From: Bernardetiaceae bacterium
GTDB taxonomy: Bacteria > Bacteroidota > Bacteroidia > Cytophagales > Thermoflexibacteraceae
NCBI GenBank assembly: GCA_025454895.1
Contig: JALONO010000018.1
Coordinates: 1 to 33,342, forward strand
Direction of reading: 5' to 3'
DNA length: 33,342 bases
Positions 12,386 through 28,252 of the stretch are shown here, piece after piece (within the stretch, counting starts at the first letter, position 1; every line of letters begins with the position of its first letter). A program made the translations under genes and the position numbers. The notes under the pieces are model-generated. The model was not told the DNA's origin, searched no databases, and saw only the letters and a program-made list of their open reading frames with translations.

Positions 12386-12732
12386 CAATTTTTTAGCCGC
12401 CTTACCCGATAGCCCCATTCATTTAGACAATCAAACAAGTTATTGAGATAGCAGATGCCCAACCACCTACCATCCCATAGCTCCTGCTTTCCCCAGACCA
12501 AGCCATCTTGGTCGGCAGGCGGCCAAATTAGCAATTTTTCTCTCTATCTATTTGATTGTCAAATATTTATTTTGATTTTCGGCCGGATTTACCAGTATTT
12601 TTGGCCGAGCCGGGCCGCCGTTCGCTCCGGTCAAGGTGGGCCAGGCCTAATTCCCGGCTTAAAATTTTCAAAAATTGCCTCGGTTAGGGTTACTTCGCCT
12701 TTTGGAAACGTATTAAAAGAAGTCAGCCATTG
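12386..12732. other. Divergent intergenic region and leader of the ECF sigma operon
   Basis: This noncoding stretch is A+T-rich in the middle. It holds a small hairpin, GACCAAG/CTTGGTC with a CCAT loop (12496-12513), and the promoter at 12571-12603. The predicted leader from that promoter to the sigma ATG is about 125 nt. A 92-codon open frame crosses it, but its composition is unlike the neighbouring genes and I do not call it. Confidence 0.55.
12571..12603 (+). promoter_or_regulatory. Housekeeping promoter of the ECF sigma operon
   Basis: TTTG at 12571-12574 and TATTTTTG at 12596-12603 match the Bacteroidota -33 and -7 elements exactly, with a 21-nt spacer. The same spacing is seen before bamD. 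It drives the sigma/protease pair and implies transcription by the primary sigma factor. I see no GGAAC-type autoregulatory ECF promoter with a correctly spaced -10 element, though such motifs are lineage-specific and could be missed. Confidence 0.65.
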
Positions 12733-13296
12733 ATGAAGCCAGCCGCCATTGCCACCGAAGCCGATTTCGTGAATGCACTGCGTGAGGGCGACCGGGGGCT
12801 GATGAACCGCCTTTACCGGCTGCATTTTCCGATGGTGTTGCACCTCATCACGAGCAACAACGGCAGCGAGGCCGAAGCCAAGGATGTGTACCAAGAGGCG
12901 TACATTGTACTCTACGAAAACCTGCAAAAGCCTGATTTTGAGCTAAAATGCAAAATCAAAACCTACCTCTACTCCGTAAGTAGGCGGCTGTGGCTCAAGC
13001 GGCTCGATAAAAAAAAGAGCCATACCAGCCTGCATGATTTTGAAGAATACCTGCCCCTGGTGGACGACGATGGTTCCCTGGCCGAGGCCCGGTTCAACCT
13101 CATCAACCACGCCATGAACAAACTGGGCGAGCCTTGCCGCTCCATTTTGGAAGATTACTACCTCAACGACCTGAGTATGGCCCAAATTGCCGACAAAATG
13201 GGCTATACCAACGCCGACAATGCCAAAACGCAGAAGTACAAGTGTTTTAACCGATTAAAGAAGATACTGGAGGGTTTGCAAAATGAAGACCAATGA
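12733..13296 (+). CDS. ECF-family RNA polymerase sigma factor
   Basis: A 187-residue sigma-70 protein with only regions 2 and 4. Region 2 (about 25-95) includes RLYRLHFPMVLHLI, the region 2.2-like AEAKDVYQEAYIVLYENL, and KIKTYLYSVSRRLWLKRL. After an acidic linker (LPLVDDDGS), region 4 holds MNKLGEPCRSILEDYYLNDLSM and the helix-turn-helix AQIADKMGYTN, then AKTQKYKCFNRLKKIL. This style of region 4 is common in Bacteroidota ECFs. ATG at 12733 is used rather than the TTG one codon earlier. Its 3' end overlaps the protease gene by 14 nt, implying translational coupling and a dedicated sigma/anti-sigma relationship. The regulon is unknown. Confidence 0.92.
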   Translation: MKPAAIATEADFVNALREGDRGLMNRLYRLHFPMVLHLITSNNGSEAEAKDVYQEAYIVLYENLQKPDFELKCKIKTYLYSVSRRLWLKRLDKKKSHTSLHDFEEYLPLVDDDGSLAEARFNLINHAMNKLGEPCRSILEDYYLNDLSMAQIADKMGYTNADNAKTQKYKCFNRLKKILEGLQNEDQ

Positions 13297-14377
13297 CGAC
13301 GCACTGATTGACGACTACCTACACCACCAACTTACCCCCGCCGAACGCCTTGCCTTTGAGGCCCGGCTGGCTCAGGAGCCCCAACTGGCCGCCCAGTTGG
13401 CCCAAACCCGACAAGTGGTGGCCGAGCTTCGGTTTTTGGGCCAACGCCAAAAAACCAGAGCCTTGCTGGATAGCTTCCATCAAGACCTGAACCCGGCCGA
13501 AGTGGACGCGGGCCTACGCCGCTATGCCCGCAGCTTTACCGTGCTGCGCCGCAAGTACCTGCCCACGGTGGCCGCCGCCGCCTCGGTGGCCGTGATCACG
13601 GTGTTCTCCATTTTGCTCATGCGCGACTACCTGCGCGGGGTCGAGAACAGCCTGCAAACCAGCTATCGCTCGCTGGCCCGCCAATTTGGCCAGATCAAAA
13701 AGAAACAAGAAGTACTACAAGACAGTATCGAAGCCGTGCGCAGCCGTGATGAGTATCTCAAACAAGGGGCTACCGGGTTTGCCATCTCGGCCGATGGCTA
13801 TCTGCTCACCAACTACCACCCCGTGGAAAAATCGGACTCGATATTTATTGAGTCGGTTACGCCCACTAACGAACGTTACCGGGTAGAACTGGTGTACGGC
13901 AACCGCGAAAGCGACGTGGCCTTGCTCAAGGTGGTGGACGAGAAATTCAAAGGTTTCAGCAAAATCCCCTATACGTTCAAGTCTAGCGGGGCCGACCTGG
14001 GCGAGGAGATATTCACCCTGGCCTACCCCCGCGACGAACTCGTGTACGGCGAAGGCTCGCTGAGTGCCCGCACCGGCTTCGAGGGCGACCAAGGGGCCTA
14101 CCAAGTGTCGATCCCGGTCAACCCCGGCAACAGCGGCAGCCCCGTATTTGATGCCCAGGGCAACCTCATTGGCCTCATCAAAGGCAAACAACTCGAGGCC
14201 GATGGCGTGGCCTTTGCCATCAAGTCGGCAGCGGTGCTGGAAATGATCGAGAAACTGCCCAGCGACACCCTGAAAAACCCGCTCAACCTGTCCCGGGCCA
14301 ATAAACTGGCCGGGCTAAAGCGCAGCCAACAAATCAAACGCATCGAGGAATTCGTGTTCCAAGTAAAGGTTTATTAG
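13283..14377 (+). CDS. Predicted anti-sigma / trypsin-like protease fusion, single-pass membrane protein
   Basis: The 364 residues read as three modules. Residues 1-92 are cytoplasmic; LIDDYLHHQLTPAERLAFEARLAQ resembles the N-terminal helix pair of Bacteroidota anti-sigma factors (the DYL..QLTPAER..FE pattern) and has no zinc-binding Cys. Residues 93-113 form one membrane helix (LPTVAAAASVAVITVFSILLM). Residues 114-160 form a charged coiled-coil-like linker, then an S1/HtrA-type protease domain: NYHPVEKSD (H179), GNRESDVALLKV (D211) and NPGNSGSPVFD (S284), so the catalytic triad is intact. There is no PDZ domain. The gene overlaps the ECF sigma gene by 14 nt. Likely role: holds the sigma factor at the membrane and is inactivated or self-cleaved upon an envelope signal. 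The domain order is seen; the mechanism is inference. Confidence 0.85.
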   Translation: MKTNDDALIDDYLHHQLTPAERLAFEARLAQEPQLAAQLAQTRQVVAELRFLGQRQKTRALLDSFHQDLNPAEVDAGLRRYARSFTVLRRKYLPTVAAAASVAVITVFSILLMRDYLRGVENSLQTSYRSLARQFGQIKKKQEVLQDSIEAVRSRDEYLKQGATGFAISADGYLLTNYHPVEKSDSIFIESVTPTNERYRVELVYGNRESDVALLKVVDEKFKGFSKIPYTFKSSGADLGEEIFTLAYPRDELVYGEGSLSARTGFEGDQGAYQVSIPVNPGNSGSPVFDAQGNLIGLIKGKQLEADGVAFAIKSAAVLEMIEKLPSDTLKNPLNLSRANKLAGLKRSQQIKRIEEFVFQVKVY

Positions 14378-14731: not shown

Positions 14732-16648
14732 TTACTTTTTCACTTCTTCATATTCCACGTCAGTGAATTCGCTGCCGCCGGAGTTGCCGCTGCCGTCAGT
14801 GCCGGGGTTACCGCCGGGCTGCTCGCCACCGGAGTTAGCGTTGTTGCCCACGTTTTGGTAAATCTCCTGCGAGGCCGTGGCCCAGGCGGCGTTGATCGCC
14901 TCCATGGCCCGGTCAATGGCTTCCACGTCTTTAGCGGCGTGGGCGGTGCGCAGGTCTTTGAGGGCGGCCTCGATAGCGGTGCGGTTACCTTCGCTCAGTT
15001 TCTCGCCGTACTCCTTCAGTTGTTTTTCGGTTGTGAAAACCATGCTGTCGGCGGCGTTGATTTTCTCGGTGCGGTCGCGCTCGGCCTTGTCGGCACTTTC
15101 GTTGGCCTTGGCCTCGTTACGCATCCGTTGAATTTCGGCGTCGGTAAGGCCCGAAGAAGCCTCGATGCGGATGTGTTGCTTTTTCTGAGTGCCCAGGTCA
15201 ACGGCCGTTACGTTCAAAATACCGTTGGCATCAATGTCGAACGTAACCTCGATTTGGGGCACACCGCGCGGGGCGGGGGGCAGTTGGTCGAGGTGGAACT
15301 TGCCAATGGTGCGGTTGTCTTTGGCCATCTGGCGCTCGCCTTGCAGCACGTGAATTTCTACCGAAGGCTGACTGTCGGCGGCCGTTGAAAACACCTGCGA
15401 CTTTTTAGTAGGAATGGTCGTGTTGGACTCGATGAGGCGGGTAAACACGCCGCCCAAGGTCTCGATGCCCAACGAGAGCGGGGTAACGTCCAGCAGGAGC
15501 ACGTCTTTCACCTCGCCGGTGAGCACACCGCCTTGGATCGCGGCCCCTACGGCCACCACTTCGTCAGGGTTAACCCCTTTTGAGGGTTTTTTGCCAAAGA
15601 ACTTCTCCACTTCTTCCTGGATGCGCGGGATGCGGGTGGAACCGCCCACCAAAATCACCTCGTCGATTTCGTTAAGGTTGAGGCCGGAATTTTTCAAAGC
15701 CCGGCGGCAAGGCTCCAGCGTGCGCTGGATGAGGCTATCGGCCAATTGCTCAAACTTAGAGCGGCTCAGTTGGCGTACCAAGTGCTTAGGGATGCCGTTT
15801 ACCGGCATAATATAAGGCAGGTTGATGTCGGTTACCGTGGAGCTTGAGAGTTCGATTTTGGCTTTTTCGGCGGCTTCTTTCAGGCGTTGCAGGGCCATAG
15901 GATCCTTGCGCAGGTCGATGTTTTCATCACGGATAAACTCTTCAGCCAGCCAGTTGATAATGGTTTGGTCAAAATCGTCGCCGCCCAGGTGGATGTCCCC
16001 GTCGGTTGATTTTACCTCGAACACCCCGTCGCCGAGTTCCAAAATCGAGACATCGAACGTGCCGCCCCCTAAATCGAACACGGCGATTTTCATGTCCTTG
16101 TGCTTTTTGTCCAAGCCGTAAGCCAAAGCTGCAGCGGTCGGCTCGTTGATGATGCGCTTCACATCTAGCCCGGCAATTTGACCAGCCTCTTTGGTGGCCT
16201 GCCGTTCGGCATCGTTAAAATAAGCGGGCACGGTAATCACGGCCTCGGTAACGGTGGTGCCCAGGTAGTCTTCGGCGGTGGCCTTCATCTTTTGCAAAAT
16301 GATGGCCGAGATCTCCTGCGGGGTGTACAGCCGGTCGCCGATGCGCACGCGGGGGGTGTCGTTATTGCCGCGCTCCACTCCGTAAGAAATGGTGAGTAGC
16401 TCCTTGCCCACATCGGTGAATTTTTTGCCCATAAACCGCTTGATGGATTGCACCGTGTTTTTGGGGTTGGTAATGGCTTGACGCTTGGCTGGGTCGCCCA
16501 CCTTGCGTTCGCCATTGTCCATAAATGCCACGATCGAGGGGGTGGTACGCTTGCCCTCGCTGTTGGCAATTACGGTAGGTTCGTTCCCCTCCATAACTGC
16601 CACGCACGAGTTGGTGGTACCCAGGTCAATGCCAATGATTTTTCCCAT
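14732..16648 (-). CDS. dnaK: Molecular chaperone DnaK (Hsp70)
   Basis: ATP-driven cytoplasmic chaperone working with DnaJ and GrpE. The 638 residues cover the whole protein. The N-terminus [20 protein letters not shown], the nucleotide-binding signatures [14 protein letters not shown] and [13 protein letters not shown], the linker region [20 protein letters not shown], and the substrate-binding domain with [13 protein letters not shown] are all present. The helical lid ends in a Gly/Asn/Ser-rich tail and an acidic [12 protein letters not shown], the normal DnaK C-terminus. ATG at 16648 is unambiguous. dnaJ and grpE are not adjacent. No CIRCE-type inverted repeat was found upstream, nor a clear TAnnTTTG box, so heat regulation is not evident from this sequence. 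Confidence 0.98.
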
Positions 16649-28219: not shown

Positions 28220-28252
28220 CAAAATTAGCTAACTTAGGCTTTTATCACCAAA
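28220..28252 (-). promoter_or_regulatory. Housekeeping promoter of bamD-rpoZ
   Basis: On the minus strand TTTG (28249-28252) is followed after 21 nt by TAATTTTG (28220-28227). Both match the Bacteroidota consensus. Only 5 nt separate the -7 box from the ATG at 28214, so transcription would start at or within a few bases of the start codon. Confidence 0.7.

Follow-up and report, generated by a model that had tools for sequence, protein, structure and literature searches.

An ECF sigma factor paired with a candidate anti-sigma/HtrA-like protease fusion, and its predicted near-minimal regulon in Bacteroidota

The 33,342-nucleotide stretch of Bernardetiaceae DNA analysed here (the window) carries an ECF sigma factor gene overlapping a gene whose product joins an anti-sigma-like domain to a periplasmic protease. 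The pair is best explained as a self-contained envelope-signalling switch in which the fused protease is both the input and the site-1 protease; we give this reading as a whole a probability of about 0.55. The system appears, from sequence, to switch on almost nothing besides itself and a tiny, motif-rich lipoprotein. The pair is kept across at least three Bacteroidota orders, with a candidate site-1 protease built in, and its promoter is specific enough to name targets, which makes the envelope-signalling circuit compact and testable and opens a way into the PG1828-like small lipoproteins.

The gene pair and its distribution

The sigma gene (12733–13296, + strand) encodes 187 amino acids comprising regions 2 and 4 without region 3. 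Its product scored 70.3 bits against TIGR02937 (cut-off 42.9), which together with this layout places it among the ECF factors, and 41.2 bits against Pfam Sigma70_r2 (cut-off 24). ATG 12733 is preferred to TTG 12730 as the start codon, since its methionine is conserved. The fusion gene (13283–14377, + strand; 364 amino acids) was delimited by its ORF, domain models, conservation and an AlphaFold model, and re-deriving the ORFs confirmed that it overlaps the sigma gene by 14 nt. In this genome dnaK (14732–16648, − strand) lies convergent and directly 3′ of the fusion gene; it is not a conserved neighbour.

Conservation of the pairing among homologues, which the earlier note had proposed to check, was borne out in two sets of sequences. 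Full-length fusions were found in about 26 of 59 related genomes, each with an adjoining sigma homologue (36–65% identical). Among 80 named loci drawn from Cytophagales, Sphingobacteriales and Chitinophagales, the sigma gene is directly upstream in 78; at L044 it is present and split by a frameshift, and L095 reaches the end of its contig. Among 395 genomes from the phylum searched with a profile, 29 had a full-length fusion, one copy each. These family counts exclude protease-only matches, which have other N-terminal parts and lack the anti-sigma domain. No further gene in the neighbourhood of sigma and fusion was common to all loci, and a search of viral contigs for relatives of the sigma factor returned none.

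A second ECF sigma factor, 38% identical to the first (genome G000, contig C192, locus L145, 1479–4836, − strand), adjoins a gene for a 921-aa protein whose first 70 or so residues resemble the anti-sigma domain of the fusion and are followed by a long, beta-propeller-looking region. Set beside the fusion, L145 makes it seem that the same anti-sigma domain has been combined with different periplasmic parts.

Domains of the fusion protein

The earlier note had described a zinc-less, anti-sigma-like domain followed by a single transmembrane helix, then a coiled coil and an HtrA-like protease without PDZ, and this architecture held up on re-analysis. The product has no cysteine and a single hydrophobic segment, with its hydropathy peak at about residues 95–113. 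In the AlphaFold model, helices at 2–13, 19–31 and 33–68 are followed by a long helix (71–117) that spans the membrane, a helix at 125–153, a trypsin fold, and a C-terminal helix and strand. We assign residues 1–92 (13283–13558, + strand) to a cytoplasmic, helical, anti-sigma-like domain, residues 93–113 (13559–13621, +) to the membrane helix, and residues 125–153 (13655–13741, +) to a conserved coiled-coil linker. The closing helix plus strand (residues 340–364; 14300–14374, +) is conserved in the alignment, including R347, Q350 and V363.

The periplasmic protease occupies residues 163–325 (13769–14257, +). Pfam Trypsin_2 matched residues 163–298 with 83.9 bits (cut-off 27.6), a Pfam search detected no PDZ domain, and the closest solved structures were DegS-deltaPDZ and the HtrA1 catalytic domain (Z about 19). 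The catalytic triad of H179 (13817–13819), D211 (13913–13915) and S284 (14132–14134), all on the + strand, had been reported as intact and proved invariant in 81/81 sequences, so that fold and triad together place the domain with the HtrA/DegS (S1C) proteases. Trimers are the usual state of HtrA enzymes. The linker has hydrophobic a/d positions at 128, 131, 135, 138, 145 and 149, with Gln, His or Thr at 142, a heptad pattern that fits a protease domain probably held as a trimer on the coiled coil. The same protease domain, with a similar C-terminal helix–strand and without the anti-sigma domain, occurs in secreted or lipoprotein proteases of other Bacteroidota (L146–L152, L154–L156), and such stand-alone enzymes are the likely source of the fused protease.

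The curated anti-sigma models that matched residues 1–92 all did so below their cut-offs: NF052375 gave 33.1 bits (cut-off 100) and zf-HC2 gave 13 (cut-off 22.2). Contact of this domain with the sigma factor, which the earlier note had proposed to model, was examined with loci having both genes in the same frame, intervening stop codons being read as glycine. The sigma factor and anti-sigma domain of a relative, Thermoflexibacter ruber, folded as one tethered chain without a negative control, gave pTM 0.81 and mean pLDDT 87, values that suggest a confident mutual placement within this uncontrolled single-chain model. The arrangement of sigma2 and sigma4, however, is unlike that in solved complexes (rmsd 12 Å to sigmaE/RseA and 7.7 Å to BldN/RsbN); the whole model aligned well with these complexes for single domains only, a comparison that excludes nothing. 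In a coevolution analysis of 115 sigma–fusion pairs, residues 1–92, which make up 25% of the columns, accounted for 40 of the 100 highest-ranking column pairs. The strongest pairs involve the protease, and the anti-sigma domain is not singled out.

Promoters and the predicted regulon

A conserved ECF-type promoter, GGGTTAC-N16-GTATTAA, lies just upstream of the sigma gene (12687–12716, + strand) and had been missed by the earlier note. GGTTAC is present in all 79 sigma upstream regions, which align as GGGTTAC-N15/16-GTATTAA shortly before the sigma gene; GGTTAC and GTATTA are both exact in 70 and changed in 9. The motif also tracks the system genome-wide. It occurs in exact form in 26/29 fusion-bearing genomes against 4/366 without the fusion (Fisher p = 3e-33, counting the sigma promoter itself and uncorrected for relatedness). 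We predict that this sigma factor itself reads the motif and is thereby autoregulated.

The promoter to which attention had been drawn previously was TTTG-N21-TATTTTTG (12571–12603, + strand), a candidate of the Bacteroidota housekeeping type. The site exists and sites of its kind exceed chance (3 in the window against 0.16 expected), but it is not conserved: it recurs in 1/79 upstream regions, the window's own, and was rejected as the relevant promoter. At most it is an extra promoter of the housekeeping kind. Two more sites of the form TTTG-N-TANNTTTG, also above chance, lie at 100–131 and 28220–28252, both on the − strand, and are probably ordinary Bacteroidota promoters.

In the window's own genome the ECF-type motif has exactly two sites, even when one mismatch is allowed. 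One precedes the sigma gene; the other is 48 nt before a gene for a 69-aa lipoprotein elsewhere in the genome. The loci examined contained 161 distinct sites, with 90 before sigma genes, 52 before small lipoproteins as called by script and 19 before other genes or nothing; one lipoprotein call (L207) looks spurious, leaving about 51. The lipoprotein gene frequently diverges from sigma, and at times it is repeated in tandem with a separate site for every copy (L068, L081, L101, L050). The predicted regulon is near-minimal, consisting of the sigma operon and one or a few small lipoprotein genes. In two genomes (L205, L210) the gene that follows an exact sigma-type site is short (about 96 aa, alike in both) and does not encode a lipoprotein; it is a possible extra member. 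A divergent zinc-ribbon gene beside the pair had been put forward as a target; no copy of the promoter was found ahead of it even when up to 3 mismatches were allowed, and we rejected it, the predicted regulon being the sigma operon and the lipoprotein gene elsewhere in the genome.

Each of the target lipoproteins (48–90 aa) carries a signal peptide and a lipobox cysteine, and T, A, S, D and K abound in its short tail. D-[ST]-[AILVMT] occurs 218 times in the mature parts, whereas composition-preserving shuffles gave 47 copies (sd 6) and the reversed motif occurs 41 times; the tails are repetitive, so the sites are not independent. The general O-glycosylation system of Bacteroidota uses this motif (PMC12871550), and O-glycosylation of the tails is our prediction.

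Proposed mechanism, alternatives and related systems

In the resting state, the fusion would use its N-terminal domain to keep sigma bound at the inner membrane, as pairing and modelling support. A periplasmic signal would then trigger the DegS-like domain to cut the linker, either in the same chain or in a neighbouring one, shedding the bulky periplasmic part. No conserved cleavage site was evident in the linker in the alignment of 81 sequences, and cleavage by the fused protease is therefore something we infer; sigma release by this route is plausible. An RseP-type protease would next cut the membrane helix near its XAA motif and ClpXP would degrade the anti-sigma remnant, both steps being proposed from the motif and the RseP homologue. 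The freed sigma factor would transcribe its own operon, restoring sigma and inhibitor, together with one or a few small lipoprotein genes, as the promoter sequences strongly support.

The motif in question, A-A-A here (residues 98–100; 13574–13582, + strand), has A99 and A100 in 81/81 sequences, while position 98 is V in 65, I in 11 and A in 5. The window's genome encodes an RseP-type M50 peptidase of 449 aa (213 bits); such enzymes are near-universal. The single transmembrane helix, the XAA-type degron and the genome-encoded S2P are together the sequence features of a substrate of regulated intramembrane proteolysis. In RsgI anti-sigma factors, XAA in the membrane helix yields a ClpXP recognition tail after RseP cleavage (PMC12203970), and such a tail is predicted here; in RseA, the RseP cut falls between residues 108 and 109, inside the membrane (PMC6963605).

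The fused protease could instead be an output of the system, a membrane-anchored quality-control enzyme present in amounts governed by the autoregulated operon, with another HtrA-type protease cutting the linker to free sigma. The operon stands behind sigma's own promoter, which makes the protease a regulon member; related secreted proteases exist without the anti-sigma domain, and three other HtrA-like genes in the genome are possible site-1 proteases. Yet a tight, single-copy fusion with a linker conserved in 81/81 sequences would be needless if the functions were independent, and we consider this account possible but unlikely. Much less probable is that the protease-like domain acts as a sensor that binds a ligand and has no need to cut, like the S1C-like domain of RsgI9, and that other cleavage triggers release. 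The S1C-peptidase-like domain of RsgI9 has been described as able to bind cellulose (PMC12203970), and phmmer matched its structure 7sjy with E 2e-6, but a retired enzyme would not be expected to keep its whole triad, with G-[NY]-S-G, in 81/81 sequences. We attach similarly little credence to the N-terminal domain being a pro-sigma co-activator, as in some FecR proteins, rather than an inhibitor: the domain is indeed helical, zinc-less and below the curated anti-sigma cut-offs, but Pfam found no match to the FecR periplasmic domain that would put the protein in that family, and its best partial matches are anti-sigma models.

For the self-contained switch, the nature of the target by itself suggests a trigger linked to the state of the outer membrane or of lipoproteins. 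A doubtful extension, offered as speculation, closes the loop: the fused protease would sense the state of the envelope, perhaps of lipoprotein delivery, and cut itself to free sigma, and sigma's only dedicated product would be a tiny lipoprotein with a disordered, densely O-glycosylated tail that feeds back on the protease as ligand, substrate or inhibitor.

The system resembles RseA/DegS/RseP of the E. coli sigmaE pathway in its ECF sigma factor, its zinc-less, single-pass anti-sigma factor, its DegS-type protease fold and the intramembrane cleavage expected of an RseP-type enzyme. Unlike DegS, the protease is fused and has no PDZ domain, and it scored 47.6 bits against the DegS model TIGR02038 (cut-off 422.95). 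RsgI9 of Clostridium thermocellum, with an S1C-like domain plus NTF2, shares the anti-sigma factor, the XAA membrane helix and the periplasmic S1C-like domain. It is, however, a SigI-family orphan whose autocleavage takes place in a separate periplasmic domain (PMC12203970), whereas the fusion has an adjacent sigma partner and an invariant triad. Pfam gave no RsgI domain match, and the partner is an ECF factor, which keeps the fusion outside the RsgI family. A short, helical cytoplasmic domain before a membrane helix, encoded beside an ECF gene, recalls the class I anti-sigma domains (ASDI), but here the domain falls below the curated model cut-offs tested; ASDI-linked ECFs are reported to be scarce in Bacteroidetes, where 6% lie near a class I anti-sigma gene (PMC7406223). 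RsgI9 already provides an anti-sigma factor that carries an S1C-like domain. No description of such a protein beside an ECF gene, with an invariant triad and so small a regulon, came up in the literature searched, which took in few of the subscription journals.

On the side of the targets, two of the four lipoproteins tested passed the 50-bit cut-off of NF050142 ('PG1828 family lipoprotein'), while that of the window's genome (28.3 bits) and one from Hymenobacter fell below it; that this family is linked to a promoter read by an ECF sigma factor is our proposal. The family is named after PG1828 of Porphyromonas gingivalis, and PG1827 is the ECF sigma factor SigH (literature, NCBIfam). The consecutive numbers PG1827 and PG1828, taken by themselves, suggest an old link between sigma factor and lipoprotein.
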